A program made the translations under genes and the position numbers. 47,842 nucleotides of DNA, from the IMG/VR virus record IMGVR_UViG_3300007276_000010, positions 1-47,842 of that record; one strand, 5' to 3'. The notes beneath the pieces were generated by a model that saw only the letters and a program-made list of their open reading frames with translations, was not told where the DNA came from and searched no databases. Within the stretch, counting starts at the first letter, position 1; each line of letters starts with the position of its first letter. Positions 124 to 46,442 of this stretch are shown here, piece by piece. The stretch comes from a virus.

Positions 124-1817
124 AAGATTTGTGGACGCGTAATGTCGAGGCGTTAGCTGGTACATATCCTGATGACGTTCGAGACTTTGACGAGTCGAGT
201 GCTGACGCTGCACTTGCTCAACATTTGGCATTTTGGACCGGTAACGATTGCGCCCGTATTGAACGCATTATGAGATTATCGGGTCTTGTTCGTTCAAAGT
301 GGGACTATCACAAGTCGTACATGGAACGCACCATCACCGGGGCGTGTGCACGTCAAGAAACGTTTTACAGTATTGGCGCACCTATCGAACTTGAAGATAC
401 TAGTATCGTTGTCGAGTCGGTTTTTCGCGAAGGGTATCAGTTGCTCAGTGCTGAACAACAGGTCGACATCTTCAAAGGCTGCGTGTATATCGCCGAGACG
501 AACAAAGTGTTCACACCTAATGGCGCGATGCTCAAATCTGACCAGTTTAACGCGATGTACGGCGGTTATTCATTCGTTACTGATAACGAGGGCGAAAAGA
601 CGACTAAAAAGGCATGGGAAGCGTTCACCGAATCGCAGTGTTTGCATAATCCTAAAGTCGATTCGATGACGTTCCGTCCCGACCTTAAACCGTGTAGTAT
701 TGTTGATGTCGACGGGTGGCGTTATGTCAATACATACGTGCCGATTAACGTGCAAATGGTTGAGGGCGATGTCACGCCGTTCACGACACATTTACGTAAA
801 GTATTACCTGACGAACGGGACCAGACAATACTACTTAGTTATATGGCAGCGTGCATTCAGTACAAAGGTTATAAAATACAGTGGGCGCCATTACTTCAGG
901 GTGTTGTTGGCAACGGTAAAACATTGTTTACTCGTTGCGTAGCGTATGCTATTGGTGACCGTTACACTCACATGCCGCCGGCGCTTGAAATTAGTGAGAA
1001 GTTTAACGCCTGGTTATTTAACACGATGTTCATTGGCGTAGAGGATATTTACGTACCGTCGAACAAAATGGAAATGATAGAAACACTCAAGCCGATGATC
1101 ACAAATAAACGACTGGCCCGTCGTGCGATGAATACCGACCAAGCAATGCATAATATTTGCTGTAACTTTATGTTTAACTCGAACCACAAAGACGGTATTA
1201 AAGACGCGACCAAAGACCGACGTTACTGTGTGTTTTATTCAGCTCAACAGGAGAAGATCGACCTTGTTCGTGATGGTATGGATGGTTCGTATTTCTCGAA
1301 GTTGTACGCTTGGTTAGATAACGATAAGGGTTATGCTAAGGTTGCCCAGTTTTTAACTGATTACGCGATACCAGACGAATTTAATCCGACGATGAGTTGT
1401 CAAACTGCGCCAATAACGTCAAGCACCGCCGAAGCTGCTACGATTGGCATGGGTAGTGTAGAGCAAGAAATTATCGAAGCAATCGACGAAGGGCGTGGCG
1501 GTTTTGCGGGTGGTTGGGTGTCATCGTTCAAACTCGACGCATTAATCGATAACATGCGTAAAGGTAATATGGTCACACGTAATAAACGACGCGAGTTAAT
1601 GCGCACGTTAGGTTACGATTATCATCCAGGTTTGAAAGACGGTCGTGTGAATAATGTCATACCGATGGAAGCGGGTAAACCTCGACTCTATATTCGCGTT
1701 GGTCATATTCACAGTAATCTGACGAGTGGTGCGGAAATAGCGAGGCTTTACGCTGCTGCTCAAGGTGATTTGTTGTCAGCGTCGATAAGTGTTGACAATT
1801 CCGTCAAGAACAATTAA
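3..1817 (+). CDS. Primase-helicase, C-terminal part (gene continues from the window end)
   Basis: This is the helicase part of a 796-residue replication protein whose first part lies at 47146-47842; joining the ends after removing the 123-base overlap keeps the frame. The first ATG in this part is at 90. It has a Walker A motif GVVGNGKT (about residues 492-499 of the full protein), a Walker B-like stretch ending in GVEDIYV, and a later FNSNHKD motif, the pattern of superfamily 3 helicases related to D5/VirE phage proteins. By family it should unwind DNA at the phage fork. The last codons contain an operator and promoter for the next gene (1792-1820). Confidence 0.9.
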   Translation, partial: HCEGSYPPKTDEKLIEKALGSAATATAQQMFGGGVIRASFKDLWTRNVEALAGTYPDDVRDFDESSADAALAQHLAFWTGNDCARIERIMRLSGLVRSKWDYHKSYMERTITGACARQETFYSIGAPIELEDTSIVVESVFREGYQLLSAEQQVDIFKGCVYIAETNKVFTPNGAMLKSDQFNAMYGGYSFVTDNEGEKTTKKAWEAFTESQCLHNPKVDSMTFRPDLKPCSIVDVDGWRYVNTYVPINVQMVEGDVTPFTTHLRKVLPDERDQTILLSYMAACIQYKGYKIQWAPLLQGVVGNGKTLFTRCVAYAIGDRYTHMPPALEISEKFNAWLFNTMFIGVEDIYVPSNKMEMIETLKPMITNKRLARRAMNTDQAMHNICCNFMFNSNHKDGIKDATKDRRYCVFYSAQQEKIDLVRDGMDGSYFSKLYAWLDNDKGYAKVAQFLTDYAIPDEFNPTMSCQTAPITSSTAEAATIGMGSVEQEIIEAIDEGRGGFAGGWVSSFKLDALIDNMRKGNMVTRNKRRELMRTLGYDYHPGLKDGRVNNVIPMEAGKPRLYIRVGHIHSNLTSGAEIARLYAAAQGDLLSASISVDNSVKNN

Positions 1818-1820
1818 TCT
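1792..1820 (+). promoter_or_regulatory. Promoter with TTGAC-N6-GTCAA operator (site 1, perfect)
   Basis: The -35 is TTGACA (1792-1797), the spacer 17 bases and the -10 TAATCT (1815-1820). The inverted repeat TTGAC-AATTCC-GTCAA (1792-1807) covers the -35. It lies in the last codons of the helicase gene and points to the gene at 1875. Confidence 0.65.
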
Positions 1821-1832
1821 AGATACAGATAA

Positions 1833-1853
1833 AGCGCTTCGTGTCGGGGCGCT
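1833..1853 (+). other. 5' leader hairpin AGCGC/GCGCT
   Basis: AGCGC (1833-1837) pairs with GCGCT (1849-1853) just ahead of the gene at 1875. The same hairpin stands before its paralogue at 35618 (35640-35660). It may stabilise the mRNA or control translation; the role is inferred. Confidence 0.45.
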
Positions 1854-1874
1854 ATCATTGAGAGAACGAATAAA

Positions 1875-2084
1875 ATGGCTAAAGTTAGAATTTTAAATGA
1901 CGGCGGGTTTGGTTTATCGGACGTAGATTTCCCCGTGGTTGTCAACGCAACACCGAGAAAAATGTGGAATGATATTATTGGTTTCGACGTCGATCGTAGT
2001 GAGTTTGGTGATACTCAATCTGTAGGTGTTAAGTTGTATTTTTCAATACTACATGACGAGTGTGAGGTATTAGACGATGAGTAA
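1875..2084 (+). CDS. Small conserved protein, paralogue of the 35403-35618 gene
   Basis: A 69-residue protein of unknown function. It is nearly identical to the protein encoded on the minus strand at 35403-35618, both starting with KVRILNDGGFG and differing mainly near the C-terminus. The duplication includes the operator-promoter, the leader hairpin and the start of the following overlapping gene. There is no membrane segment or metal motif. Position after an early-type promoter suggests an early gene. It overlaps the next gene by 8 bases. Confidence 0.75.
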   Translation: MAKVRILNDGGFGLSDVDFPVVVNATPRKMWNDIIGFDVDRSEFGDTQSVGVKLYFSILHDECEVLDDE

Positions 2085-2268
2085 TTGTAACGCAATCAGA
2101 CAGGGCGACCAAATGCAGTGTGGGCGATGTGGTTTATCGTGGGACATTGATGACAAAGACCGTCCGAAGTGTAACCCGCTTGACATGGCGTCACGTGCGC
2201 AACGGGATCGTTCGAACTGGAAATTAAGCCAAGTTCGTAAAACTCATAATTTTAAGCGGGGATGGTAA
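2077..2268 (+). CDS. Small zinc-finger-like protein
   Basis: A 63-residue protein with CGRCGLSWDIDD followed by a third cysteine in RPKC, a motif common in small phage proteins that may bind zinc. The N-terminus MSNC is shared with the unrelated protein that follows the duplicated gene (35416 minus), so the start codon region belongs to the duplication. No function can be assigned; it is part of a tightly overlapping row of small early genes. Confidence 0.65.
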   Translation: MSNCNAIRQGDQMQCGRCGLSWDIDDKDRPKCNPLDMASRAQRDRSNWKLSQVRKTHNFKRGW

Positions 2269-2567
2269 TTGTTATGCAAATTTATAGTAATGTTCGATTG
2301 ATGTTAAGAACGGTTCGACCTGTTAACGGAACTATTGGTTTACGTTGTTCAGTTGAAGAAGCAGAACGCACGTGGTACAACGACGTTAGCTATAACGACC
2401 GTAAAGATTTCGAACTCGTAGTCGAGTCGGCGCCACACGGTTGTAACGTGTTTGTTCGTCCGTGGAGTGAGTCGGGTATGATCACTGGTGGTGCTCCGTC
2501 GTGGGTCGGTTGGGGATTTATTGCTGTGTTTTCATTAGGTATGCTAGCGGGGCTGTATTATGTCTGA
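2262..2567 (+). CDS. Small membrane protein, hypothetical
   Basis: About 101 residues with a soluble N-terminal part and a C-terminal hydrophobic segment (roughly the last 22 residues, beginning WVGWGF and ending GLYYV), so a tail-anchored membrane protein is likely. The start overlaps the preceding stop; an in-frame ATG at 2274 is an alternative start. No family recognised. Confidence 0.6.
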   Translation: MVIVMQIYSNVRLMLRTVRPVNGTIGLRCSVEEAERTWYNDVSYNDRKDFELVVESAPHGCNVFVRPWSESGMITGGAPSWVGWGFIAVFSLGMLAGLYYV

Positions 2568-2739
2568 TTTTATTGACGAAACGTTAGAACGTGAAGACGC
2601 ATTACACCAAGCGACGATAGCGAATCGCGTTCGTTACACTGGTGTTAGTGCGACTCATTGTATTGAATGTGGTGAAGTAATACCACAAGGTCGCCGCGAT
2701 GCAGTGCAGGGCGTTAAATTATGTGTGGAGTGTGCTTGA
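2560..2739 (+). CDS. TraR/DksA-type zinc-finger protein
   Basis: A 59-residue protein. Its C-terminal half holds a four-cysteine zinc finger, CIECGEVIPQGRR then LCVECA, which is the signature of the TraR/DksA family. In the family these proteins bind the RNA polymerase secondary channel and change promoter choice; phage versions are short, as here. It starts 8 bases before the end of the upstream gene, which fits translational coupling. The role in redirecting host transcription is inferred. Confidence 0.8.
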   Translation: MSDFIDETLEREDALHQATIANRVRYTGVSATHCIECGEVIPQGRRDAVQGVKLCVECA

Positions 2740-2740
2740 T

Positions 2741-2896
2741 ATGAACGCTAATCTATTGATATTTATTTTGTACACGTTGATCGTGTGGTTCGCTGCGCCT
2801 AACATGGTAATACCTGGTATTGCATTATGTGGGTTCGTTCTGTCCATTCCAGCGTGGTTCGTATTGGCGTTCGTTAAGGGGAGTAGGATATCGTGA
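2741..2896 (+). CDS. Small two-helix membrane protein
   Basis: A 51-residue, very hydrophobic protein with two likely transmembrane segments (starting LLIFILYTLIVWF and IALCGFVL). The ATG at 2741 follows the previous stop at once; an upstream in-frame ATG at 2699 lies inside the TraR-like gene and is less likely. Unknown function. The next gene starts with GTG in a 4-base overlap. Confidence 0.6.
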   Translation: MNANLLIFILYTLIVWFAAPNMVIPGIALCGFVLSIPAWFVLAFVKGSRIS

Positions 2897-3435
2897 AACA
2901 TATAATGTTAGACATAGAAACGATGGGTGTGTCTGGTAATGCTGCGATCATGGCAATCGGCGCATGTTACTTCGACCCGTCTACGGGTGAAATTGGCGAT
3001 ACGTTCCACGAGCAAGTTGATATTTCATCGAACGGTCAAATCGATGCGTCCACTGTGTTGTGGTGGATGAAGCAAAGCGACGAAGCACGTTCGAAATTTT
3101 ACAACAACCATAAAGCCGAACCAATTCAGCATGTATTGAGTATGTTTTATCGGTTCGTTAAACCAGGTTGCCAAGTATGGGGTAACGGTATTGCATTCGA
3201 TAATGTGATCATCCGTAACGCATTTGACCACACGGGTTGTCTTGACCCTGTACCTTGGAAGTTTTGGAACGACCGAGACGTTAGGACAATGGTCGAGTTA
3301 GGTCAAGCTATTGGATTGGACCCGAAACGCGATTTTCCGTTTGAAGGTATTAAACACGACGCGTTAGCCGATGCTATACATCAAGCTAAGTACGTGTCGG
3401 CCATTTGGCAAGCGTTAACTGGCCCGTACTTATGA
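2893..3435 (+). CDS. DEDD-type 3'-5' exonuclease
   Basis: A 180-residue protein with the exonuclease signature LDIETMG at residues 6-12 (catalytic Asp and Glu), a central GNGIAFDNVIIR (second Asp) and HDALADAIHQA near the C-terminus (His and last Asp). This matches the RNase T/Rv2179c-like exonuclease group found in many phages. It should trim 3' ends of DNA or RNA; the substrate cannot be told. It starts with GTG overlapping the upstream stop. Confidence 0.85.
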   Translation: MKHIMLDIETMGVSGNAAIMAIGACYFDPSTGEIGDTFHEQVDISSNGQIDASTVLWWMKQSDEARSKFYNNHKAEPIQHVLSMFYRFVKPGCQVWGNGIAFDNVIIRNAFDHTGCLDPVPWKFWNDRDVRTMVELGQAIGLDPKRDFPFEGIKHDALADAIHQAKYVSAIWQALTGPYL

Positions 3436-3794
3436 TGTATAATTATTTAGCTGCACTCGTTGCGGTAGGAGCGTCCCTTGGGGGCGCTTTCGTGTATGGT
3501 CAACATACGGCCACAGTGAGCGCTGAACGTGACGCGCTTGAACGTGACGTCGCAATGTATCGCAGTATTGATACGCTTGCGACTAAGCTACGTGTGAGTG
3601 ATGAAGCGTTAACCATTGAACAACAACGTGTCGCCACGGTGCGACGCGAGGAGGTTATTAAATATGTCGATAAATACCGTACCAAGCTGGTCGACCGTCC
3701 CGTTATTATTGAGTGTGTTAACGATAGCGGGTTGTTGCAGCTCATCAACAGTGCCAATCCAACCGTTGCCGCCAGCGTTGACACCGCCGAGTGA
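3432..3794 (+). CDS. i-spanin (Rz-like)
   Basis: A 120-residue protein with an N-terminal membrane segment (YLAALVAVGASLGGAFVYG) followed by a charged helical region (AERDALERDVA onward), the plan of an inner-membrane spanin. The start overlaps the exonuclease stop (ATGA). A lipoprotein gene starts inside it in another frame (3664), the classic Rz/Rz1 layout. The pair links inner and outer membranes and completes lysis of Gram-negative hosts. Confidence 0.8.
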   Translation: MMYNYLAALVAVGASLGGAFVYGQHTATVSAERDALERDVAMYRSIDTLATKLRVSDEALTIEQQRVATVRREEVIKYVDKYRTKLVDRPVIIECVNDSGLLQLINSANPTVAASVDTAE

Positions 3795-3936
3795 GTTGCT
3801 TGTCGCGCCGGTACTAATGCCGCGTTATGAAGGTGCGGAAGGTGCCGAGGACGTTGCGGTTGAACAGGGCCGTATCGCTACCGATACGCGTGACAGGTTG
3901 ATACGTTTACAAGAATGGATAAAGGGGAAGATGTGA
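3664..3936 (+). CDS. o-spanin (Rz1-like lipoprotein), overlaps the i-spanin gene
   Basis: The first 131 bases lie inside the i-spanin gene in another frame. The ATG at 3664 gives a 90-residue protein with a signal peptide ending in the lipobox LTIAGC, followed by a proline-rich stretch (VPIQPLPPALTPP) as in Rz1. Maturation should attach it to the outer membrane. An upstream ATG at 3616 would add residues before the signal peptide and is less likely. Confidence 0.8.
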   Translation: MSINTVPSWSTVPLLLSVLTIAGCCSSSTVPIQPLPPALTPPSELLVAPVLMPRYEGAEGAEDVAVEQGRIATDTRDRLIRLQEWIKGKM

Positions 3937-4016
3937 TGGAATATTTAGATTGGATATTATTCGTTGTTGCCATAACAGGTGTTATTTTATGCCTTGCGAC
4001 CAAACCGAAAGATTAA
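3936..4016 (+). CDS. Tiny membrane protein
   Basis: A 26-residue product, one hydrophobic helix (LDWILFVVAITGVILCLA) followed by a short basic tail. The ATG overlaps the stop of the o-spanin gene (TGATG), so it could be translated by coupling. A terminator follows at 4036. It may be a small lysis accessory protein; no homology recognised. Confidence 0.45.
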   Translation: MEYLDWILFVVAITGVILCLATKPKD

Positions 4017-4035
4017 TACGTTCATGTTAAACATT

Positions 4036-4058
4036 GCCCGTCATGTGACGGGCTTTTT
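4036..4058 (+). terminator. Rho-independent terminator after the spanin operon
   Basis: An 8-bp stem GCCCGTCA/TGACGGGC with a 2-base loop, followed by five T. It ends the rightward 1.8-4.0 kb transcript and separates it from the convergent leftward genes. Confidence 0.85.
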
Positions 4059-4070
4059 GTTGTCTATGTT

Positions 4071-5117: not shown

Positions 5118-5228
5118 TTATGACGTAATAATCACTGTTTCTAAGTTCGGGGTAAAACTCAGGTGGTAGCTGAAACGCAGTCGTGGCGCGGGCTGTAGAG
5201 GATTGGACATGTTACCCCGCTTTTTTCG

Positions 5229-5425
5229 ATACTCCCTATAGTATTCTTGTATATTCATTGTATATGTATATATATTATACCCTATATACTATACTCTCTT
5301 ATTATACATACTCATTATTCTTACAACATTAAAAGATAGAGGTATAGAGGTAAGTATGCTAAGTCATTGATTGTTAAATTGCTTTTAGTACCTTCAAAAT
5401 TACCTGAGTCGTTTTGATTCGGGGT
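5229..5425 (+). repeat. AT-rich noncoding element, copy A
   Basis: Homologous to 17943-18130. It begins with 27 identical bases (ATACTCCCTATAGTATTCTT and the next seven), runs through a TATA-rich stretch and ends in a conserved block with AGGTAAGTA, GTCATTGATTGTT, TTTTAGTACCTT, TTACCTGAGTCG and TTCGGGGT. AGGTAA (5348-5353) and TTACCT (5400-5405) form an inverted repeat. It lies directly upstream of the terminase genes. It may be a late promoter/leader, a replication origin or a structured RNA; the function is unknown. Confidence 0.75.
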
Positions 5426-9102: not shown

Positions 9103-9118
9103 TTGACAACACCGCCAA
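9103..9118. promoter_or_regulatory. TTGAC-N6-GTCAA operator (site 2, one mismatch)
   Basis: TTGAC-AACACC-GCCAA, 35 bases upstream of the extended -10 at 9153. Read leftward it is followed by GGTATATATTGG, resembling the leftward promoter at 11643. Confidence 0.5.
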
Positions 9119-9149
9119 TATATACCCACTCGTGATACGTGTCAAGCGG

Positions 9150-10982: not shown

Positions 10983-11161
10983 TATTTATCACCTTTGCAA
11001 AATTCGATAACGCTATTCGATGAGTCGGTATTAAGTACGTTATTACCTTCGAGGTCATATACTCTAAAATTCCAACAAGTACAAGTTTCGGGATGACACA
11101 TGTAGTGTCCCGATTCGCTTTTAAAATCTTTGAATTGTTCGTCTAACTCGAATGCTCTCAT
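10982..11161 (-). CDS. Small hypothetical protein with Cys cluster
   Basis: A 59-residue protein with MCHPETCTCW near the middle, a possible metal site. The start overlaps the upstream gene by 4 bases and its stop overlaps the start of the next gene. No family recognised. Confidence 0.6.
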   Translation of the reverse strand: MRAFELDEQFKDFKSESGHYMCHPETCTCWNFRVYDLEGNNVLNTDSSNSVIEFCKGDK

Positions 11162-11610
11162 CGTACCGCCCCGTTAAGTTCGTCTAAAATTAATTGTGAA
11201 TATCCGCAGATGTCGCGCCAATTATCATCATACATCGGATCACCATTTAGAATACGACCGATTTTGTGTTGTATCATTTCGAGCGCTTCGCGTTGACTCG
11301 GTGTTAAACATTCCCAGTTCGGCGTTTCGCGCATGATACCTTTCAAGTCTTGCATAATCACCGACCCGTCTTTGAACTTACCGTATCGTTCACCACGTTG
11401 CGTGATGGTCGTGTCGATATCGGTTGGTGCGGTTGTTGGTCGTGATTCGATAATTTCCCAATATGGATCGCCAATAATGAAATGGTCACCGGTATCGTCT
11501 AAGCATTCGTATTCCTTACCGTTGAAATATGCGAAATCCACTTCGCCATTTTTATAACGTAATGCATGGGTAGCTTCACTACTCGCTTTACTCCAATCTA
11601 TTTCATTCAT
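11158..11610 (-). CDS. DUF6378-like phage protein
   Basis: A 150-residue protein. The C-terminal half (RGERYGKFKDGSVIMQDLKG ... LTPSQREALEMIQHKIGRIL) matches the widespread phage family DUF6378, of unknown function. The N-terminal half is a short separate beta-rich region (HALRYKNGEVDFAYFNGKEY). First gene of the leftward island, behind a promoter that carries the shared operator. Confidence 0.75.
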   Translation of the reverse strand: MNEIDWSKASSEATHALRYKNGEVDFAYFNGKEYECLDDTGDHFIIGDPYWEIIESRPTTAPTDIDTTITQRGERYGKFKDGSVIMQDLKGIMRETPNWECLTPSQREALEMIQHKIGRILNGDPMYDDNWRDICGYSQLILDELNGAVR

Positions 11611-11628: not shown

Positions 11629-11644
11629 TTGACAATTACGTCAA
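11629..11644. promoter_or_regulatory. TTGAC-N6-GTCAA operator (site 3, perfect)
   Basis: TTGAC-AATTAC-GTCAA lies between the -10 of the leftward promoter and the gene at 11610, so bound protein would cover its start site. Confidence 0.6.
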
Positions 11645-17202: not shown

Positions 17203-17757
17203 TTAAAGACGTGTAGGCATCAACGCGACTTGAAGCGTATCGACTTCATTGAATATACGAGTGATCAATACCGAGTCACTAGCGTCACGTAATGTAAACT
17301 TACCAACTTTGAAAGTGTGGTCATGTACTACAAGTTCACACGCTTTACATACGCGAGCCAGATGATTGAAGTTTAAACCTATCTCACTGCACGACGTACT
17401 AGTCGCGCCACTATATAAACGCATGGCACGCGCTAAATCAGGATAACGACCGTCGATAAATTCAACTTTATATTCACCGATTCGAGCTAACTCGTTGCTG
17501 ATACTGAATGTTGGTTTCGCTTTTGGTCCGAATAATTTAAGTAAATTGGCGAGCGATACACCACATAAAATCACGTCTGTATTAGGTTCAACGTTAAACA
17601 TTTCAGATTTAATCGTTAAAATCATACCACTGTGACCGTCAGACGCTTCCATTTTAACGATGCCGTCTTCACCACACTTGATATGAATACCGTTTAAATA
17701 ATAACGAATGTCTTTTTTTGCAGCAATCGTTAACAAACCTTTAAGTGTTTTTACCAT
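17203..17757 (-). CDS. Reduced DNA sliding clamp (beta-clamp-like)
   Basis: A 184-residue protein resembling the C-terminal two-thirds of bacterial DnaN: KDIRYYLNGIHIK then ASDGHSG near the N-terminus (compare DVRYYLNG and TDGHRL in E. coli beta), VEFIDGRYPD in the middle, and a C-terminal MPTRL matching the MPMRL end of E. coli beta. At half the length of a bacterial clamp it probably has two domains per subunit, and a ring might need three subunits. It would tether the phage family B polymerase. Leftward gene with its own operator-promoter. Confidence 0.7.
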   Translation of the reverse strand: MVKTLKGLLTIAAKKDIRYYLNGIHIKCGEDGIVKMEASDGHSGMILTIKSEMFNVEPNTDVILCGVSLANLLKLFGPKAKPTFSISNELARIGEYKVEFIDGRYPDLARAMRLYSGATSTSCSEIGLNFNHLARVCKACELVVHDHTFKVGKFTLRDASDSVLITRIFNEVDTLQVALMPTRL

Positions 17758-17808: not shown

Positions 17809-17836
17809 ATACTATCACTATTGACGCTGTTGTCAA
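17809..17836 (-). promoter_or_regulatory. Leftward promoter with operator (site 4, perfect)
   Basis: On the minus strand: -35 TTGACA (17831-17836), 16-base spacer, -10 TAGTAT (17809-17814). The repeat TTGAC-GCTGTT-GTCAA (17821-17836) covers the -35 and spacer. Drives the clamp gene. Confidence 0.7.
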
Positions 17837-17942
17837 TCATTAATTTACCCGAACTTTGAGTTAACGACACACGGTTTGAGGTGGCGTAAAGTATTGATTA
17901 GAAAGAGTTACCTCGTTTATGCTGCAAACCCCGTATAGTTCA

Positions 17943-18130
17943 ATACTCCCTATAGTATTCTTGTATATTATCTGTATATGTATGTATGATCTATACTGTA
18001 TATACTATATGCATACTTATAATTCTTACAGTTATAGAAAGTAGAGTTACAGAGGTAAGTACGTTAAGTCATTGATTGTTTAAATGGTTTTAGTACCTTG
18101 AAATTTACCTGAGTCGTTTTTGTTCGGGGT
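17943..18130 (+). repeat. AT-rich noncoding element, copy B
   Basis: Homologue of 5229-5425: 27 identical bases at the left end, a diverged TATA-rich centre and a conserved right block (AGAGGTAAGTA, GTCATTGATTGTT, TTTTAGTACCTT, TTACCTGAGTCGTTTT, TTCGGGGT). AGGTAA (18053-18058) and TTACCT (18105-18110) form an inverted repeat as in copy A. It precedes the tail module. The rest of the gap 17837-18189 holds no gene that I can see. Confidence 0.75.
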
Positions 18131-20920: not shown

Positions 20921-21118
20921 TTAACTCTTTACATCGTTAATATCGTATGCTGTAAAGTGATGTCGACCTACCCATTTATTATGTATTCCAAATTGAAAAC
21001 CTATTTCAATACTTAAATCGTCGCTGTGTTTGTTTGATTTAGCTATGATAGCTACGTTGTATTTAATCATTAATTCACCGAGTTCTTTCTTGAACTCGTC
21101 GGTATAGACTGACGACAT
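20921..21118 (-). CDS. Small hypothetical protein (leftward island)
   Basis: A 65-residue protein (MSSVYTDEFKKELGELMIKY...). The ATG at 21118 has AAAGGTGG upstream; a GTG at 21127 lies within that ribosome site. It stands alone as a leftward gene between neck and sheath genes, with a near-perfect sigma70 promoter that carries the shared operator. No family recognised. Confidence 0.6.
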   Translation of the reverse strand: MSSVYTDEFKKELGELMIKYNVAIIAKSNKHSDDLSIEIGFQFGIHNKWVGRHHFTAYDINDVKS

Positions 21119-21169: not shown

Positions 21170-21197
21170 ATTATATTACTATTGACGGTTGTGTCAA
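21170..21197 (-). promoter_or_regulatory. Leftward promoter with operator (site 5, perfect)
   Basis: On the minus strand: -35 TTGACA (21192-21197), 16-base spacer, -10 TATAAT (21170-21175). The repeat TTGAC-GGTTGT-GTCAA (21182-21197) covers the -35. This intergenic unit is duplicated at 24496-24570. Confidence 0.75.
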
Positions 21198-24254: not shown

Positions 24255-24464
24255 TTAGTCGCAACGAGCAGCGATGAAATGTTCAACAGCTAATAAACCT
24301 TTAACCTTTTTAAAACCTGGTAAAAATTTACCGTCGTCGTCCATCGCGTAGATTGTACCGTCCGTCAAACAATAATCATCTTCGCCAAATGAGAAAACAA
24401 CAGTGTCGCTAAATGCTGTAATACCGTTGAATTTATTAGCTACTTGATTGATTAATGTTGTCAT
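24255..24464 (-). CDS. Small hypothetical protein (leftward island)
   Basis: A 69-residue protein (MTTLINQVANKFNGITAFSD...). The ATG at 24464 has GGAG upstream and lies downstream of the promoter; the longer frame starting at 24497 would begin inside the -10 and is rejected. First gene of a four-gene leftward island. No family recognised. Confidence 0.6.
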   Translation of the reverse strand: MTTLINQVANKFNGITAFSDTVVFSFGEDDYCLTDGTIYAMDDDGKFLPGFKKVKGLLAVEHFIAARCD

Positions 24465-24495: not shown

Positions 24496-24523
24496 ATATT
24501 AACACTATTGACGGTTGTGTCAA
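24496..24523 (-). promoter_or_regulatory. Leftward promoter with operator (site 6, perfect)
   Basis: On the minus strand: -35 TTGACA (24518-24523), 16-base spacer, -10 TAATAT (24496-24501). The repeat TTGAC-GGTTGT-GTCAA (24508-24523) is identical to site 5, and the flanks (CAAGCGTT, AATTATTTTTAAAT) are also shared. Confidence 0.75.
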
Positions 24524-26727: not shown

Positions 26728-27589
26728 TTATAATAACCGACGTTGGTCGATGACGCTTGACGGTGAACCGTTTATCGAGGAAACAGAAGGGCGTCAGTTC
26801 AAGTGCACATTTGAGATATTACACGACTTTGGCGGCTATACGAGTTACGCCGATGTAGCGTTATATAACCTCAGTACGGATACAGCGAATAAGGCGTTCC
26901 CTCGTGGTACTGTAATGTCGTTCCGTGGTGGTTATACCGATTCAATCGACACGTTGTTCACAGGCACGATTAACAACGTTCTACGCGAGCGAGTTGGACC
27001 GGATACGATAACACGATTAATTTGTCGTGGCGGTAAACTTGTTGATAACCAAACACAGATAAATGAAACGCTCGGTAAAAACGCTAAAGTGACTGATATT
27101 ATACGATCGTGTGTTACGGCTATGGGTTACCCTATCATAATGGACGATGCGCAATTTGCAGATATTGACCCGTATGCGTTTGGTTATGCTCTCAGCGGCG
27201 ACCCACGTGTGTACATGGACGAGTTAGCACAAGCGCATAACTTTGATTACGTGATTGAAAATGAACGAATGGTCGTGGTACGTAAAGGTTATTCGCGTCA
27301 AGGTGAAGTACAAGTCGTGTCACAGTTCACGGGGATGGAAGGTATACCCGAAATCACCGAAGTCGGCGTCGACGTAACGGTTCGTTTAAATCCCAAACTG
27401 CACATTGGTGGTATGTATCGCATCGAGTCGGATTTGGCCACTTTCAACTTTAGCAACCTGTATTTTGTGGACATACCCAAATCGGCTGGTGTCGGTGAAT
27501 ATAAAATATTTCGCCTTACGCATACGGGTGACACGTGGGGCGACGCTTGGTCGACTAAAATAACAGGATATAAAGAGTTGACACCATAG
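26720..27589 (+). CDS. Baseplate hub protein (gp27/Mu gp44-like)
   Basis: A 289-residue protein. The N-terminal half has FKCTFEILHDFGGYTSYADV and FRGGYTDSIDTLFTGTINNV, as in gp27-type hub domains; later VYMDELAQAHNFDYVIENER is typical of the hub family. It forms the centre of the baseplate on which the spike sits. The spike gene follows only after a ~1-kb RNA-rich gap. Confidence 0.75.
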   Translation: MSSYNNRRWSMTLDGEPFIEETEGRQFKCTFEILHDFGGYTSYADVALYNLSTDTANKAFPRGTVMSFRGGYTDSIDTLFTGTINNVLRERVGPDTITRLICRGGKLVDNQTQINETLGKNAKVTDIIRSCVTAMGYPIIMDDAQFADIDPYAFGYALSGDPRVYMDELAQAHNFDYVIENERMVVVRKGYSRQGEVQVVSQFTGMEGIPEITEVGVDVTVRLNPKLHIGGMYRIESDLATFNFSNLYFVDIPKSAGVGEYKIFRLTHTGDTWGDAWSTKITGYKELTP

Positions 27590-28094
27590 TCATTAATGTA
27601 TAATATCGTACTCGTTGGTGACACAGTAGTGACGATACTGTAATCAGATGAACGAGAGCCCACTCGGTGTAGCGATACGGTGCGGGTGTAAACAGCGAGA
27701 TGAGTATGGTAAGCTGTTACGGGTAAGCAGGTAAAACGAGGCGTCGCTCACAACACGCCTATCGTCATCGAGTCGATAAATGTCACGACCACCAACCCGA
27801 CAAGTTACCGCACACGTGGTGAACATTAACCGACTGTTGTTGGTGTTTTAAAATCTTGACTGGCAAAGAGCCGTTACCGCACACGCGGTTTATTATATTG
27901 TTAAGACTCTTTAAAGTTGGGAGCAGCTTATAAGCCCTCGCCATGCTACGAATTGATGAACAGCTCAATCGGAAGATTCTTTAACAATGTGATTTATTTT
28001 CAGTTGGCCTAGATATCCGCTCGCGAGGCGGGGACGCAGGTTCAAATCCTGCAATCACATTCGATGGTTCATTCCATAACTGGAGGTGGTCCGC
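27590..28094. other. 505-base gap without a clear gene, with small hairpins
   Basis: No convincing gene. Contents seen: a 17-base near-repeat GTTACCGCACACGTGGT (27804-27820) and GTTACCGCACACGCGGT (27873-27889), each able to form ACCGC-ACAC-GYGGT; a tRNA-like element (27986-28061); and a hairpin AACAGC/GCTGTT near 27690. Unusual in an otherwise tightly packed baseplate operon. Confidence 0.6.
27986..28061 (+). tRNA. tRNA-like element, degenerate (possibly Arg GCG)
   Basis: A 9-bp acceptor-like stem AATGTGATT/AATCACATT and a perfect T arm GCAGG-TTCAAAT-CCTGC are present, plus CAGTTGG as in D loops. The anticodon stem TCCGC/GCGGG closes the loop TCGCGAG, which would read GCG but has C instead of T before the anticodon, and the D stem is weak. 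No CCA is encoded. It may be a decayed tRNA or a tRNA-like signal. Confidence 0.45.
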
Positions 28095-28478: not shown

Positions 28479-28565
28479 GGAAATATCGCATAATGGTATT
28501 GCAACGGGTTGCTAACTCGTCGTCGAGAAATCGACCTATAGGTTCGAGTCCTATTATTTCCGCCA
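28479..28565 (+). tRNA. tRNA-Ser (anticodon GCU)
   Basis: Acceptor GGAAATA/TATTTCC, D loop with ATAATGG, anticodon stem ACGGG/CTCGT with loop TTGCTAA (anticodon 28511-28513), long variable arm GTCGA-GAAA-TCGAC as expected for serine, T arm ATAGG-TTCGAGT-CCTAT, discriminator G and an encoded CCA. It should read AGC and AGU codons. Confidence 0.9.
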
Positions 28566-35165: not shown

Positions 35166-35416
35166 TATACTAATCCTTCTAATAAAATTGTTCGTGTCAT
35201 TTCGGTGCTGCACTTTGACTCAACGCAGCGTTTAATATTTTCAAGTAACGTGACGGGGTTTTCAAGTAACGCACCCGTAACGCCACGGTCAAAGTCACAT
35301 CGTTCAAGCACGTACACATACGCGTCGAGTTCTTCAAACGCTTCGATACGGTCACATAGCGTTCGTGTTTCGTCCGTGTGTTCAACTTGAACGTCGACTA
35401 TTTTACAATTGCTCAT
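35165..35416 (-). CDS. Hypothetical protein
   Basis: An 83-residue acidic protein (MSNCKIVDVQVEHTDETRTL...). Its start codon and first four residues (MSNC) come from the segment duplicated at 2077. The rest is unrelated to that gene. Coupled by overlaps to both neighbours. Confidence 0.6.
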   Translation of the reverse strand: MSNCKIVDVQVEHTDETRTLCDRIEAFEELDAYVYVLERCDFDRGVTGALLENPVTLLENIKRCVESKCSTEMTRTILLEGLV

Positions 35417-35618
35417 CGTCTAACACCTCACATTCACCGAGCATCATTGAAAAATACAACTTAACACCTACAGATTGAACATCACCGAACTCACTACGGT
35501 CAACATCAAAACCGATAATGTCATTCCAAACTTTTCTAGGGGTTGCGTTGACGACTACAGGAAAATCTACATCTGATAAACCAAACCCACCGTCATTTAA
35601 AATTCTAACTTTAACCAT
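35403..35618 (-). CDS. Small conserved protein, paralogue of the 1875-2084 gene
   Basis: A 71-residue protein from the ATG at 35618 (GAGGTG upstream). Nearly identical to the protein at 1875-2084, differing mainly at the C-terminus where it gains QL before the stop. Promoter, operator and leader hairpin are duplicated too. Unknown function; having two copies under the same operator suggests dosage or timing matters. Confidence 0.75.
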   Translation of the reverse strand: MVKVRILNDGGFGLSDVDFPVVVNATPRKVWNDIIGFDVDRSEFGDVQSVGVKLYFSMMLGECEVLDDEQL

Positions 35619-35672: not shown

Positions 35673-35701
35673 ACAGTACTCTACTTTGACAAACCCGTCA
35701 A
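35673..35701 (-). promoter_or_regulatory. Leftward promoter with operator (site 7, perfect)
   Basis: On the minus strand: -35 TTGACG (35696-35701), 17-base spacer, -10 TACTGT (35673-35678). The repeat TTGAC-AAACCC-GTCAA (35686-35701) covers the -35. It lies within the last codons of the upstream small gene. Confidence 0.65.
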
Positions 35702-39481: not shown

Positions 39482-39658
39482 TTAACCGTGTTTGCGAATG
39501 TTGTTACGTTTTGTTGCAAGGCGTTTCGATGCTGCTACACCTGACGCTTTTGGTCGTGCGTTACGCTTTTGACCTTTGTCGGGACCAGCGTAATGATTGT
39601 AACGATTTGCTTCGTCTGGTTGTCCGTATGACTCGCTATTGATTTTAATTTCGTACAT
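39482..39658 (-). CDS. Small basic protein
   Basis: A 58-residue, strongly basic protein (KRNARPKASGVAASKRLATK) likely to bind nucleic acid. ATG at 39658 with GAGG upstream, two bases after the nuclease gene's stop. Not recognised. Confidence 0.6.
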   Translation of the reverse strand: MYEIKINSESYGQPDEANRYNHYAGPDKGQKRNARPKASGVAASKRLATKRNNIRKHG

Positions 39659-39659: not shown

Positions 39660-40847
39660 TTAAACCTCTTGATGTTGCTTTCTGAATACGTTACGCGCTT
39701 TAGCGCCGTTGTCCTCGACGAGCTTCATGCTTGTCATTGGAGTTTCACTATATAGTTCTATGACGCTCGCGTCAATACCTTTTTTCAAAACTTGTGCAGG
39801 TGTATCGAGCGTAACGGGTTTACGGACATCAACGCCCATCAAATCACCCATCATGATCACTTCGTCACTTGGTGTATCTTTGCGCCAGCGTTTATTGCCG
39901 TAGCCTTGCTTGGTGATGAAACCTGGTAATATCTTACCGTTGCGTATTTCGGCCAACGCTTGTTCTTCAAGTCCACTCAGTCGCGCTTTTAACGTCCGTT
40001 CGGCACGTTTTAAAATACGTAACTCAAGCGCTAAATGATGACCGGTCAACGTTACACCTTCGACGTTACCGATATAATCTAATGAACCGTAACTAGCTTG
40101 CTGTAACGTATCGCAAGCGTATCGTGCCGGACAATATTCACATTGACGACCGACCTTGCATACCGCCGTGTCACTGTACGACTCGTTAGCGGCCGCAATT
40201 ACCGTGTTGATATAACCGCGTAGTTCGGACGCTTTACATTCCCACACGTCGGTTGTGCCACCGCTACGGAACGAACGGGGCTGTGATACCCGCATCGATA
40301 CGTTGATGTTTTGATCCATGTGACCATTAATACCCAATTGTCTGAGAATACCCTCGACGTAGGTGATCAATTGCCAGTTCTCGAACGCATCGACTTTACG
40401 GTGTCCGAACTTACCTTCCCACACGTAGAGCGTCGCGGCGGCTTTATCGAATAACCAACAGTCGATATAACCATACATGCCTTCGATGATACACGATAGG
40501 TCGATTTGTTCTTCGATATGTAAATCACGTAACGTACCGTTGATATTGCAAATACGTAGCACATCGTTTGAATATTCTAATGCGCCGTCGTAGATCTCAT
40601 CAGTGATCACAATATTATCTTTGCTCAACGTACCGACAACATGACTTGATGAAATTAGTTCACTACCTGGCGACTTAAACGATTCGAGAATACGTTGCGC
40701 TACTTCGTGGAACGCACGCCCTTCGAGGCGTGCCTCCGATGTACCTTCGCCCGATTCGATTGCGGGGAATTGCTGGTTAAGCTTTACGCTACCGGTGCAA
40801 TTAACCCACGTGTCGGCACCACTTGCTAACAATGTCGATTTGCTCAT
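39660..40847 (-). CDS. RecB-like PD-(D/E)XK nuclease (DUF2800-like)
   Basis: A 395-residue protein. ARLEGRAFHEVAQRILE at the start, DLSCIIEGMYGYIDCWLFDK then TLYVWEGKFGHRK (acidic residues and Lys of the nuclease core), and a C-terminal cysteine cluster CKVGRQCEYCPARYACD as in Cas4/RecB-like nucleases. It may act in recombination or in processing of replicating DNA. It overlaps the upstream gene by 4 bases. Confidence 0.8.
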   Translation of the reverse strand: MSKSTLLASGADTWVNCTGSVKLNQQFPAIESGEGTSEARLEGRAFHEVAQRILESFKSPGSELISSSHVVGTLSKDNIVITDEIYDGALEYSNDVLRICNINGTLRDLHIEEQIDLSCIIEGMYGYIDCWLFDKAAATLYVWEGKFGHRKVDAFENWQLITYVEGILRQLGINGHMDQNINVSMRVSQPRSFRSGGTTDVWECKASELRGYINTVIAAANESYSDTAVCKVGRQCEYCPARYACDTLQQASYGSLDYIGNVEGVTLTGHHLALELRILKRAERTLKARLSGLEEQALAEIRNGKILPGFITKQGYGNKRWRKDTPSDEVIMMGDLMGVDVRKPVTLDTPAQVLKKGIDASVIELYSETPMTSMKLVEDNGAKARNVFRKQHQEV

Positions 40848-41869: not shown

Positions 41870-41906
41870 TTCGATAAATCCTCGGTTAGTTGTTGACGAC
41901 AGCGCC

Positions 41907-41936
41907 ATATTAAATGTATTATGACGTTCTTGTCAA
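41907..41936 (-). promoter_or_regulatory. Leftward promoter with operator (site 8, one mismatch)
   Basis: On the minus strand: -35 TTGACA (41931-41936), 18-base spacer, -10 TAATAT (41907-41912). ATGAC-GTTCTT-GTCAA (41921-41936) differs from the perfect repeat in one base. Drives the replication block. Confidence 0.65.
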
Positions 41937-42399: not shown

Positions 42400-43020
42400 A
42401 TGGCTAATAAGCGAAAAGATATATCAGGTAACCGTTACGGTAAATTAGTAGCACTTCACCCAACTAAACCGAACCATAAAGGGCTATGGAGTTGGTTATT
42501 CCAGTGTGATTGCGGGCAGGCCATCGAACGCTCAATCGTGTTCGTGTCAAAGATCAAACCTGGTGTTGTCAGTTCATGTGGGTGTGAGTGTCATTTGATT
42601 ACACATGGTTTGTCTTATTCAACCAAGAAGCTTAACTGGGTTTGGAGTGCAATGCGCCAACGGTGTACTAATCCAAATAACAAAGATTATATCAACTACG
42701 GCGCACGCGGAATAACTATATGCGATGAATGGGATGACTATGCTGAATTTGTAAAATGGGCTATGTCGTCAGGTTATAAAGATAAGGTGACAATCGAACG
42801 CGTGGATGTCAACGGTAATTACTGTCCTGAAAATTGCACATGGGTTGTAAACGAGCTTCAAGCGTTAAATACCACTCGAAACGTATATTATGAATATAAA
42901 GGTGGTTCGTATTCGATTCGTCAACTATCAGAGATTGCGGGAGTTAACTACAATACTATGCGAGGTAGAATTACTAACTACGGTTGGAGTGTTGAACGTG
43001 CTATGGGTGACATCAAATGA
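42400..43020 (+). CDS. HNH-type endonuclease-like phage protein
   Basis: A 206-residue protein of a widespread phage family. N-terminal RYGKLVALHP and CDCGQ with CGCEC form a zinc part; NWVWSAMRQRCTNPNNKDYI then YGARGITICDEWDDYAEFVKW and TIERVDVNGNYCPENCTWV are the family core. Members are thought to be homing-type nucleases. AT-rich like the first part of the following helicase gene, which it overlaps by 4 bases. Confidence 0.7.
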   Translation: MANKRKDISGNRYGKLVALHPTKPNHKGLWSWLFQCDCGQAIERSIVFVSKIKPGVVSSCGCECHLITHGLSYSTKKLNWVWSAMRQRCTNPNNKDYINYGARGITICDEWDDYAEFVKWAMSSGYKDKVTIERVDVNGNYCPENCTWVVNELQALNTTRNVYYEYKGGSYSIRQLSEIAGVNYNTMRGRITNYGWSVERAMGDIK

Positions 43021-44738
43021 TGATACAAATGCGACCTTATCAAGCTAAGGCGATTCAAGACATACATCAATGTTGGCACGACGGCAATCAATTTGTAGTG
43101 CTTGTTATGCCTACGGGGTCGGGTAAGTCGGCCACACTCTGTGAACTAGCTAAAACTGAACGTGATGACGGACAGGTGATATTGATTCTTGCTCATCGTA
43201 AAGAGTTGATCACGCAGTTGAGCCACACACTTGCTAGAAACGGTCTTAACCACAACATATTGGCGGCTAGGAAAACCGTTAAGTCAGCACATAGGCAACA
43301 GGTTAAAGAGTTCGGTAAATCTTTCGTTACTCCCAACTCTAAAGTGTTTGTGGGTTCGGTTCAGTCGTTGAAACCCGAAGAGATTAAACGGTTCTCATGT
43401 TACAGAAACAAACTCACCATGATCCAAGATGAATTTCATCACGCAACAAAGAAGTCTAAAACGTGGGGTAACATACTCACTCCGTTAGATGCGGCGGGAG
43501 CTAAAGGGATGGGAGACACGGCCACACCTTGTCGGGCAGACGGTCAAGGTTTGTCTCGTGAAACGGACGGATACGGTGACTGTTTAGTGTTGGGGCCAAC
43601 TGCCCGAGAACTTATCGAAATGGGTTACCTGAGTGATTATCGTGTGTTTTCTCCACCGAGTGACCTCAACTTAAACGAAGTTTTATTGAGTAAAACAACA
43701 GGTGATTATCAAGAGAAATCGTTAAAAGCCGAGATAGGTAAATCTCATATTGTTGGTGATATAGTTGAGAACTATATCAAAATTGCAAACGGTAAACCCG
43801 GTTTAACTTTCACTGTGGGTATTGAAATGGCTGAACGAGTGGCCGAACAGTACCGAAATCGAGGTATACCAGCGATCGCACTATCAGGTAACAGTGCAGA
43901 CAACGATCGTGAACAGGCGATAAGAGATATTCAAACCGGTAAAATATTACAAATAGTTAACGACATGTTGTTCACCGAGGGGACAGACATCCCATGTGTT
44001 GAGGTCATTACGTTCGCTAGGCCGACTCAATCTTACGGCTTATACTGCCAAATGTTCGGTCGTGGATTACGTCCCGCCGACGGTAAATCACACGCCATTA
44101 TTATCGACCACGTTGGTAACGTAGCGCGTCACGGGTTGCCCGATGCTAAACGTGAATGGTCGCTTGACCGTCGCGAACGTAACTCACCACCAGGTGACGT
44201 CGAACCGATACGTACATGTGTCGACCATAAGACGGATGGCATTGTGACGTCGACGGGTTGTTTTGCCGCTTATCCTAAGTATCTGCGTGAATGTCCTGAA
44301 TGTGGACTTGAAGTGGCGACACCGACGCCGGCCGAACGAACAGGACCGGAACACGTCGACGGGGATTTACTCGAACTTGACGCCGAAACGCTCGCACGTA
44401 TGCGTGGCGAGGTTGCCAAGGTTGATCGACCAATGGACGAAGCTGTTGCCGAGTATCGTGCCGACCTGATGCGTCGCCACACTCCGACGATTGGCGTAAT
44501 GGCACACACTAAACGGTTCGCCGTCAAGCTCGAAGCGCAACAAGAAGCGATTGCCGCACTTCGAAGCATAATGGCGTTATGGGCGGGACATCACCGCGCG
44601 GCGGGTCGTGACGACGGTGAAATATTTAGACGGTTCTATCTGCGTTACGGCGTGGATTGGTTAAGCGCTCAGGCGTTAAGTAGCGAAGCGGCTTTATCGC
44701 TCGGTTCGCGTGTTGCAATTGATATCGGGGATATGTAG
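43017..44738 (+). CDS. SF2 DEAD/DEAH-type helicase
   Basis: A 573-residue helicase. Motif I MPTGSGKS, motif Ia ILAHRKELI, motif II QDEFHH, motif III-like GDTATPCRADG, motif V FTEGTDIPC and motif VI QMFGRGLRPADGK are all present. A cysteine pair (CFAAYPKYLRECPECG) follows the helicase core. Likely acts in recombination or repair with the VRR-NUC gene right behind it. The first ~1 kb differs in base use from the last third. Confidence 0.85.
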   Translation: MMIQMRPYQAKAIQDIHQCWHDGNQFVVLVMPTGSGKSATLCELAKTERDDGQVILILAHRKELITQLSHTLARNGLNHNILAARKTVKSAHRQQVKEFGKSFVTPNSKVFVGSVQSLKPEEIKRFSCYRNKLTMIQDEFHHATKKSKTWGNILTPLDAAGAKGMGDTATPCRADGQGLSRETDGYGDCLVLGPTARELIEMGYLSDYRVFSPPSDLNLNEVLLSKTTGDYQEKSLKAEIGKSHIVGDIVENYIKIANGKPGLTFTVGIEMAERVAEQYRNRGIPAIALSGNSADNDREQAIRDIQTGKILQIVNDMLFTEGTDIPCVEVITFARPTQSYGLYCQMFGRGLRPADGKSHAIIIDHVGNVARHGLPDAKREWSLDRRERNSPPGDVEPIRTCVDHKTDGIVTSTGCFAAYPKYLRECPECGLEVATPTPAERTGPEHVDGDLLELDAETLARMRGEVAKVDRPMDEAVAEYRADLMRRHTPTIGVMAHTKRFAVKLEAQQEAIAALRSIMALWAGHHRAAGRDDGEIFRRFYLRYGVDWLSAQALSSEAALSLGSRVAIDIGDM

Positions 44739-45215
44739 ATGACACTAACACAATGGGCGATTAAGCACTCAGTCAGCCACGTGGCGTTAGCTGAGTTAAC
44801 CGCGATGTTTACCGAGCCAAATACCGACCCGTCACGGGTAATACCTGGAGCTAGTGAAGCGGCGGTCGTTAATAACGTCATGCTCGAAGCGTCGCGTGTC
44901 GGTGCTAGATTGTGGCGTAATAATGTGGGCGCGTGTAAGGACGAACGCGGTCGATTAATACGTTACGGCTTGTGCAATACATCGAAGCAGATGAACGACC
45001 AAATAAAATCACCAGACCTTATCGGTATTAAACCCGTGTTAATCACGCATGGGATGGTCGGGTCGACAATCGGTCAGTTTTTAGCGCGTGAGTGTAAGTC
45101 GGGTGATTGGAAATATGGCGCGACGGAACACGAACAGGCACAGTTGCGCTGTTTGGAGTTATTCGTCGGATTAGGTGCCGATGCGTGTTTTGTCACTTGC
45201 GAAGGGTCGTTGTAG
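44739..45215 (+). CDS. VRR-NUC-type nuclease
   Basis: A 158-residue protein. EASRVGARLWRNNVGACKDE, then IKSPDLIGIKPVLI and FLARECKSGDWKYG hold the conserved residues (Glu, Asp and E-x-K) of VRR-NUC nucleases, which cut branched DNA. It starts directly after the helicase stop and probably works with it. Confidence 0.75.
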   Translation: MTLTQWAIKHSVSHVALAELTAMFTEPNTDPSRVIPGASEAAVVNNVMLEASRVGARLWRNNVGACKDERGRLIRYGLCNTSKQMNDQIKSPDLIGIKPVLITHGMVGSTIGQFLARECKSGDWKYGATEHEQAQLRCLELFVGLGADACFVTCEGSL

Positions 45216-45223
45216 GTGGTACA

Positions 45224-45239
45224 GTGACGAACTTGTCAA
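45224..45239. promoter_or_regulatory. TTGAC-N6-GTCAA operator (site 9, one mismatch)
   Basis: GTGAC-GAACTT-GTCAA between the nuclease gene and the PAPS-reductase-like gene. A -10 like CAATAAT overlaps its right end. Confidence 0.5.
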
Positions 45240-45257
45240 TAATAAGGGTTTAATAAA

Positions 45258-46229
45258 ATGAAGAAAGTAGTTAGCTTCAGCGGTGGAAGAACAAGCGCGT
45301 ATCTATGCCATTTAATGATTGAGCTTTACGGTAAGGAGAATGTGGATTTTATTTATATGGACACGGGAGCAGAACACCCAAAGACGTATGAATTTATTAA
45401 AAAAGTAGATAAGTATTTAGGTTTAAATTTAGTTTGCTTAAGAGGTGATTTTAACCAGCCGCTAGGCAAAGGACATACTTACAAAATAATTAGTATTAAT
45501 GATATATGTCACGACCTTGGCCCGTATCGTGAAATGGTTAAAAAGTATGGCACTCCAGGATCATCATCTGCATGGTGTACCAGTAGAATGAAAGAGGAAA
45601 CGCACGACAAATACTGCAATGATAAATATGGTAAGGGGAATTATGAAACATGGCTTGGTATTAGGGCCGATGAACCAAGGAGGGTCATTGGTGAGCATCT
45701 TGGTATTAAGTGGGTATCTAGAGGCTTGAGCGCTTACGACTTAACAATAACATTACAACATATAGAGCTTAACCATCCAGTAATAAATGGCATTGGTGAT
45801 ATTTATAAAGACATACAGGATTTTATAAATAAAAAAATAGATAAAAATATAAGGTTTATGACGGAAGCTTGTGATGCTGAAAAAGAAGACGTTCTTAACT
45901 GGTGGGATAATCAGCCGTTTGATTTAGATATTCCTGAATGGCTAGGTAACTGCGTATTTTGCTTTAAGAAGTCAGACTTAAAGATTGCGGCAGCTGCACA
46001 TGACGAGCCAGAGCTATACCAAGAATGGTTAGAAATGATTGACAGCGCAACTGAACGGTCGGAACAAGAAAGAATAAGCCGCCATGTTATGTATCGTAAA
46101 AAAAGACGGATAGAGCAAGTTATAGCAACATTTGACGGCTCAACAGGTGATGAAATAAAAGCGAGAATGCGCGGAGCAAAACATCTTGACACAGGAAGTT
46201 GTTCAGAGTCGTGCGAAGTATTTCAGTAA
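45258..46229 (+). CDS. PAPS-reductase-like PP-loop ATPase
   Basis: A 323-residue protein with the PP-loop VSFSGGRTSAYL (residues 4-15), FIYMDTGAEHPKTYEF, SAWCTSRMKEE with a key cysteine, GNCVFCFKKSD and C-terminal CSESCEVF. The family uses ATP to activate or transfer sulphur groups; phage members are linked to sulphur chemistry or nucleic acid modification, but the substrate is unknown. AT-rich with foreign codon use, so probably a recent gain. Preceded by operator site 9. Confidence 0.75.
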   Translation: MKKVVSFSGGRTSAYLCHLMIELYGKENVDFIYMDTGAEHPKTYEFIKKVDKYLGLNLVCLRGDFNQPLGKGHTYKIISINDICHDLGPYREMVKKYGTPGSSSAWCTSRMKEETHDKYCNDKYGKGNYETWLGIRADEPRRVIGEHLGIKWVSRGLSAYDLTITLQHIELNHPVINGIGDIYKDIQDFINKKIDKNIRFMTEACDAEKEDVLNWWDNQPFDLDIPEWLGNCVFCFKKSDLKIAAAAHDEPELYQEWLEMIDSATERSEQERISRHVMYRKKRRIEQVIATFDGSTGDEIKARMRGAKHLDTGSCSESCEVFQ

Positions 46230-46417
46230 TGACCCACCACCACTTAACGATTTTCCACAACGGGGCGGTGTTGCCCGTTGGTGAGTCGGTCGAGATGGAT
46301 AGCGATCCGAGTGTATTTCTCGGGGTGCCTGATATCGAGGCGGGATCGATTAAAATTTACAATTGCGGTCAGTTGCGGATTATTGTCAGCATTGGGGTAT
46401 TGACGACCGCGCCATGA
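46229..46417 (+). CDS. Small hypothetical protein
   Basis: A 62-residue protein (MTHHHLTIFHNGAVLPVGES...). The ATG at 46229 overlaps the previous stop (TAATG); the in-frame ATG at 46199 lies inside the PAPS gene. Beta-rich, with no family recognised. Confidence 0.5.
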   Translation: MTHHHLTIFHNGAVLPVGESVEMDSDPSVFLGVPDIEAGSIKIYNCGQLRIIVSIGVLTTAP

Positions 46418-46426
46418 TGCTATATA

Positions 46427-46442
46427 TTGACGTTCTAGCCAA
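46427..46442. promoter_or_regulatory. TTGAC-N6-GTCAA operator (site 10, one mismatch)
   Basis: TTGAC-GTTCTA-GCCAA in the leader of the TetR-like gene, preceded by TATATA as at site 3, so it covers a likely -10/start region. Its place fits autoregulation. Confidence 0.55.

Follow-up and report, generated by a model that had tools for sequence, protein, structure and literature searches.

Dispersed-operator repressors are known from phages, P1 C1 among them, and in phi29 protein p4 governs an early/late switch in which divergent early and late promoters lie around one binding site. Mycobacteriophage stoperators likewise are many genome-spread sites for one phage repressor (PMC9283540). Among bacterial regulators, EilR of Enterobacter lignolyticus (5vl9) is a full-length protein of 192 amino acids (aa) with a ligand pocket and a 24-bp operator at one efflux-pump locus, for which PMC6127294 gives two operators per promoter region and His47 as a base-contacting residue, and Escherichia coli RutR, a host metabolic regulator with a ligand domain, has a 16-bp palindromic box (PMC10891134). 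Here we describe a 16-bp inverted repeat, TTGAC-N6-GTCAA, that recurs at promoters of a 47,842-base virus record in IMG/VR (IMGVR_UViG_3300007276_000010; this whole stretch is called the window below). Its top rank here and in relatives, its fixed registers on promoters and a co-occurring gene for a TetR-type helix-turn-helix (HTH) protein at 46468-46797 agree with the first-pass annotation of this DNA, in which one regulator controls many separate units although this gene is not named; that a single regulator reads operators across the whole phage is well supported. We consider it likely that the repeat is the operator of this phage-encoded protein, a mini-TetR, and that it defines a self-regulated, dispersed repressor regulon for early shutoff. 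Stoperator and P1 C1 systems belong to temperate phages and have unrelated DNA-binding proteins and asymmetric sites, whereas the window phage has a symmetric site, a TetR HTH and no match to an integrase (nor to a partition protein) among the 60 of its 72 listed proteins that were scanned against PHROGs.

The ten copies listed in the first-pass annotation are present as written, six of them perfect (1792, 11629, 17821, 21182, 24508 and 35686) and four with one mismatch (9103, 41921, 45224 and 46427), and two further one-mismatch copies at 27578 and 39760 bring the total to 12 (six of each kind). None of 100 dinucleotide shuffles reached this number (mean 2.25, maximum 7), and among 13,312 spaced palindromes, i.e. 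every 5-mer palindrome with gaps of 0-12, TTGAC-N6-GTCAA ranked first in the phage with six copies seen and 0.19 expected. A weight matrix trained on 121 sites from 12 relatives, with the window excluded, returned as its top 14 in the window these 12 sites and two weaker partners at 46400 and 41893, the lowest at 10.8 bits; in none of 20 block-shuffled copies did the fifth-best hit score above 10.0 bits, although the top hit reached 19.4. A chance origin was rejected on the shuffles, the palindrome ranking and the relatives' matrix. The exact core TGAC-N6-GTCA occurs ten times in the window, six times in non-coding DNA where 0.84 copies are expected (8.4% of the genome is non-coding), and nine of the ten lie at most 150 bp upstream of a start codon in our own gene list. 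With deposited annotations, non-coding core copies numbered 10/14 in JD001 (10.1% non-coding), 8/12 in MSW-3 (11.0%), 6/13 in PEi21 (6.2%) and 10/14 in vB_KsaM-C1 (8.5%), and 12/14, 10/12, 11/13 and 8/14 copies, respectively, fell in the zone upstream of start codons. In each of the five genomes tested, coding sequence held fewer sites than expected. The earlier description of all copies as intergenic or in last codons does not hold throughout, because the copy at 39760 falls within the exonuclease gene, about 100 bp before its 3' end.

The repeat is also kept at promoters of relatives. With this, the excess over shuffles and the scarcity in coding sequence, none of the outcomes that the first-pass annotation named as speaking against it was obtained. 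TTGAC-N6-GTCAA ranked first of 13,312 in G002, G016 and MSW-3 as well, the same core was top in JD001 and Scuro, and with four-base half-sites TGAC-N6-GTCA ranked 1-3 in 10 of 18 genomes compared. Across 16 uncultured records, some of them near-duplicates, 132 copies with at most one mismatch were counted, against 14 for a reversed control. MSW-3 (L042) also strongly over-represents two other palindromes, CCGG-N5-CCGG with 19 and CCGG-N14-CCGG with 13 copies (1.69 expected).

On sigma70-type promoters the repeat takes two fixed registers, in which a half-site either is the -35 hexamer or completes the -10 hexamer. Overlaps with the -35 at six copies and with the -10/start region at two had been proposed before; both kinds were borne out, but the predicted lists differ, with the -35 register at 1792, 17821, 21182, 24508, 35686, 39760 and 41921 (-) and the start register at 11629 (-), 41921 (+), 45224 and 46427. 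Of the predicted promoters, that at 35686 is weak, with a score of 7.5 bits that 23% of shuffles match, and that at 45224 is moderate (8%). Among 64 site-gene pairs from five annotated genomes, 51 promoters were better than 90% of shuffles, and in the 58 pairs at 15% or better the operator centre lay at -30 to -20 in 36 and at about -0.5 in six, figures that may be biased because the operator itself supplies the -35. Comparisons of -10 offsets and of half-sites remove this bias. Around 327 oriented sites, strong -10 hexamers are most frequent at offsets -4 (32), 23 (23) and 24 (12), against a mean of 1.8. Of near-identical sites, only those with identical letters were dropped. A -10 at a spacer of 16-18 bp stands behind 36/201 operator half-sites and 40/2,043 other TTGAC (p 2.7e-19), and behind 14/70 and 12/713 when one genome was taken per clade, clades being our own grouping; a control offset showed no difference (1/201 vs 19/2,043). 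For the start register, counted over NTGAC half-sites, the values were 30/318 and 90/6,821 (p 3.4e-15). The distance between the two registers is 27 bp, and the paired operators in front of the regulator gene are separated by this same distance in the window, G002, G016, G006, G009 and G012. Pairs with a separation of 28-29 bp stand between the divergent replication operons of the window (41893/41921), MSW-3 and PEi21. Clade differences in the outer bases (chi-square p 1.7e-11) were considered as regulator-operator coevolution and dropped, the G ends of the G006 clade belonging to a fused -10 (TATAGT).

The proposed regulator gene (46468-46797, + strand; phrog_8723) lies between a gene resembling 3'-phosphoadenosine 5'-phosphosulfate (PAPS) reductase and the primase gene, directly behind the operator at 46427 and its weaker twin at 46400, and encodes 109 aa with a TetR_N HTH and a short helical C-terminus. 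The Pfam TetR_N match reaches 28.6 bits (cut-off 24, E 1.2e-6), and among 20 window proteins scanned against Pfam only this one exceeded the curated cut-off for a DNA-binding domain. A palindromic operator beside the own gene, a trait of the TetR family, is present at the level of sequence in the pair 46400/46427. The AlphaFold model, built from six sequences, has six or seven helices (predicted local distance difference test, pLDDT, 86.5; predicted template modelling score, pTM, 0.77), and its best structural match is EilR bound to its operator (Z 11.4, 2.5 Å over 98 residues), where rows within Z 1 are tied and where, as the tool warns, helical folds can commonly give values below about 13. 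EilR is also the best sequence match of the HTH: the recognition helices compare as AAGQVHHHF against ATGQVNHIF, phage His51 aligns with EilR His47, and both systems place two operators in one promoter region. Foldseek against viral models gave three matches at E <=0.001 with lengths of 97, 166 and 98 residues; a unique C-terminal fold is not claimed, since PDB rows span the whole model. Profile-matched chains, RutR (E 6e-6) among them, measure 178-406 aa and the matched stretches end by profile position 85, and the 109 aa hold no C-terminal ligand-binding/dimer domain of about 120 or more residues. The protein falls so far short of the matched full-length chains that a normal ligand domain cannot be present, and the regulator is filed under the TetR HTH family only, not with full-length ligand-responsive TetR regulators.

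Homologues were found by tblastn (E 0.01) in 90 GenBank phage records, 64 of them Klebsiella phages; in several annotated relatives the homologue adjoins the primase gene, and its deposited label is often 'putative TetR transcriptional regulator'. The Escherichia phages ZCEC13 and vB_Eco_CWW26 also carry a homologue. The homologues of Scuro (L045 21424-21924) and SppYZU01 (L043 38065-38565) have 166 aa, with an N-terminal extension that by eye resembles a second HTH. Motif and gene were compared in 25 genomes chosen by hand, several of them close kin (the window, seven uncultured records and 17 named phages), and a homologue was present in 23. Fourteen of these 23 are motif-bearing, with TGAC-N6-GTCA in one of the first seven places among spaced 4-mer palindromes, and an operator with at most one mismatch precedes the gene in 12 of the 14 but in none of the nine motif-poor genomes. 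The latter are more distant (VP16T, Psp6, Vibrio 97.13 and 367.14, SFCi1, AeroV_348, CKB-S1, PD0307 and R9Y2); the core is absent from them or ranks 51 or worse, and no site before the gene has fewer than two mismatches (two in VP16T). The two groups also differ at the third residue of the recognition helix, which is Gly in 14/14 motif-bearing and 1/9 motif-poor genomes (Fisher p 1.8e-5 by genome, 0.0047 by clade).

In the mechanism we propose, a dimer would bind TTGAC-N6-GTCAA, with TGAC-N6-GTCA as its invariant core, at about 14 places. In the -35 register the half-site would double as the -35 hexamer with the operator centre near -27, and in the start register it would give the last -10 bases with the centre near the start point; at either position the bound protein would exclude RNA polymerase sterically. 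Whether the regulator represses or activates had been left open in the first-pass annotation, and the -35 and start-point positions favour a repressor: because a protein over the -35 or the start point blocks polymerase, repression with negative autoregulation is the mode of control that we adopt. The protein would repress its own promoter through the operator pair 27 bp apart, one operator per register, and on accumulating would shut the strong, putatively early promoters of host type that drive the replication operons and the antisense accessory genes between structural genes. It probably switches off about a dozen scattered promoters in this way, its own among them and also those of the swappable accessory genes.

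Several observations weigh against this proposal. The proposed dimer would have to form from a protein of only 109 aa, and EilR Arg32 aligns with Asp36 of the phage protein. G008 and G013, both partial records, show the motif but no gene was found in them; in G016 and SppYZU01 the sites before the gene all have two mismatches or more, and SppYZU01 is the weakest motif-bearer (rank 7, only two core sites). With four-base half-sites, other palindromes rank higher in MSW-3 and JD001. The start register is weak for TTGAC half-sites alone (5/201 vs 14/2,043; with one genome per clade 2/70 vs 5/713, p 0.12). The correlation of Gly with the motif concerns a helix position that was picked after looking and clades of our own grouping, and Psp6 shows Gly without the motif.

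The same protein might instead be two-sided in the manner of phi29 p4, repressing leftward early promoters and activating divergent late ones from the same operators. An extended -10, TGnTATACT, without a clear -35 stands on the late-facing strand 53-54 bp from the operators at 21182 and 24508, and in relatives 12 operator copies have one at 45-56 bp. Counted from the late starts, operator centres are predicted at about -55 to -61. The spacing varies over 45-56 bp, though, the late-facing peak is small (9/327 at offset 51, background mean 1.8 and maximum 9), compact divergent junctions alone would yield such distances, and the pattern occurs only in uncultured clades of that listing; p4 is moreover an unrelated protein, and activation is only a candidate in the window phage. 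We regard this two-sided action as quite unlikely. A still wider scheme, which we find unlikely too, would make a TetR HTH without ligand domain the master switch that times the whole infection in a large group of apparently lytic myoviruses: every early promoter with an operator would be repressed and the divergent late ones activated from the same sites, with operator-promoters as standard sockets for swapped cargo at fixed late-gene junctions.

Another candidate binder is a host regulator of the RutR type, whose box is a palindrome of the same length. The RutR consensus, TTGACCAnnTGGTCAA, shares the TTGAC-N6-GTCAA frame, and its outer TTGAC fits; its inner bases differ, however, since C follows TGAC in just 2/52 half-sites of the window's clade, and on this base host RutR was rejected as the main binder; the phage system is classed neither as a RutR orthologue nor as a RutR regulon. 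The RutR recognition helix differs from that of the phage protein. The motif is missing from phages with other hosts or with other helices of the phage protein, and we regard a host binder as very improbable. Least credible, at the edge of what we would consider, is that no operator exists and the palindrome is a by-product of facing -35 hexamers (TTGACA). TTGAC is indeed most of the -35 consensus and many copies serve as -35, but enrichment is limited to the 6-bp gap, start-register sites do not employ the half-site as -35, and T7 and lambda show no core excess (1 copy vs 1.14 expected and 0 vs 1.02, respectively); on these phage counts and the comparison of operators with other TTGAC, -35 hexamers alone were rejected. 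Repression by the phage-encoded mini-TetR is the reading we prefer.

Before the regulator gene, the operator TTGACGTTCTAGCCAA (46427-46442, +) occupies the start register and the weaker TTGACGACCGCGCCAT (46400-46415, +) the -35 register of the same promoter. The site TTGACAATTCCGTCAA (1792-1807, +) lies in the last codons of the primase gene at the promoter for 1875-2084, GTGACGAACTTGTCAA (45224-45239, +) is in start register for the PAPS-reductase-like gene (45258-46229), and TTGACAAACCCGTCAA (35686-35701, -) is in -35 register at the weak promoter of 35403-35618. One small gene is present as an inverted duplication of 216 bp, 86% alike (1875-2090 and 35403-35618), both copies directly behind operators (1792 and 35686). 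Between the divergent replication operons, ATGACGTTCTTGTCAA (41921-41936, no strand assigned) is in -35 register leftward and start register rightward, with the weaker partner TTGACGACAGCGCCAT (41893-41908, no strand assigned; 10.8 bits) 28 bp away, and ATGACGCTCGCGTCAA (39760-39775, -) is in -35 register for 39482-39658 and the gene of single-stranded DNA-binding protein (SSB). The weaker operator TTGACACCATAGTCAT (27578-27593, strand unassigned) is found where the baseplate hub gene ends, ahead of the tRNAs; these, tRNA-Arg(gcg) at 27987-28062 and tRNA-Ser(gct) at 28479-28565, are inside the baseplate region.

With the exception of that at 9103, the remaining sites face leftward cargo genes between structural genes. 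TTGACAATTACGTCAA (11629-11644, -) is in start register at the promoter of the cargo gene 11158-11610 (-; phrog_17775) in the head/protease slot, and TTGACGCTGTTGTCAA (17821-17836, -) is in -35 register for a RusA-like Holliday junction resolvase gene (17203-17757, -; phrog_3007) in the pre-neck slot. Two copies of TTGACGGTTGTGTCAA are in -35 register, one (21182-21197, -) on TTGACA-N16-TATAAT for 20921-21118 (-), which had no family match in PHROGs and Pfam scans, and one (24508-24523, -) for 24255-24464 (-; phrog_28095) and the leftward genes behind it, in the slot before the tape-measure-like gene. At TTGACAACACCGCCAA (9103-9118, -), between portal and head genes, a strong leftward promoter, TTGACA-N17-TATATT, was read by eye with no leftward gene in front, and this is perhaps an emptied cargo slot. 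TGnTATACT also stands at 9148, 21234 and 24560 before head, sheath and tape-measure-like genes, as candidate late promoters. Across relatives, an operator lies at most 98 bp from the matched protease gene start at the head/protease junction of 12/12 compared genomes. The portal/head junction has one in 9/9 genomes whose gap there measures 250 bp or more, and the pre-neck junction in 9/11 listed cases (exceptions MSW-3 and PEi21). The portal/head gap of the window is short, yet the operator at 9103 is retained, and relatives hold antisense genes there. The five slots contain 113 antisense open reading frames (ORFs) in 66 BLASTP families, counted as any antisense ATG ORF of at least 55 aa and including some spurious ones; one family of 16 ORFs, with 11158-11610 of the window among them, occurs in two different slots. 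Because the slot ORFs fall into 66 families, the operator-promoter persists while the cargo changes.

Bases 1-123 of the record equal 47720-47842, and because these ends are identical the record is probably a complete phage genome, assembled as a circle of 47,719 bp. According to PHROGs matches the phage has a contractile tail: the + strand carries genes for terminase, portal, head, sheath and baseplate, and a replication module comprises DNA polymerase, SSB, exonuclease, helicase and primase. Neighbours at the DNA level in GenBank were few, short and confined to the portal region, and the search gave none for the second half of the phage. Two AT-rich intergenic stretches of about 200 bp, ahead of the genes for the terminase small subunit and the neck (5214-5425 and 17928-18130), are repeats of each other with 80-83% identity. 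The motif-poor relatives VP16T and CKB-S1 bear the deposited annotations 'putative integrase' and 'Xis'.

An open-licence literature search returned no description of a TetR regulon for Jedunavirus, Yokohamavirus or relatives, which does not establish its absence from print. If the mini-TetR regulon proposed here is true, it would provide a transcription programme for the phage group that carries the homologue (90 GenBank records), and genes annotated as 'putative TetR regulator' would become testable master regulators whose target promoters can be predicted letter by letter. Accessory genes might then be spotted by the operator in front of them at known late-gene junctions.

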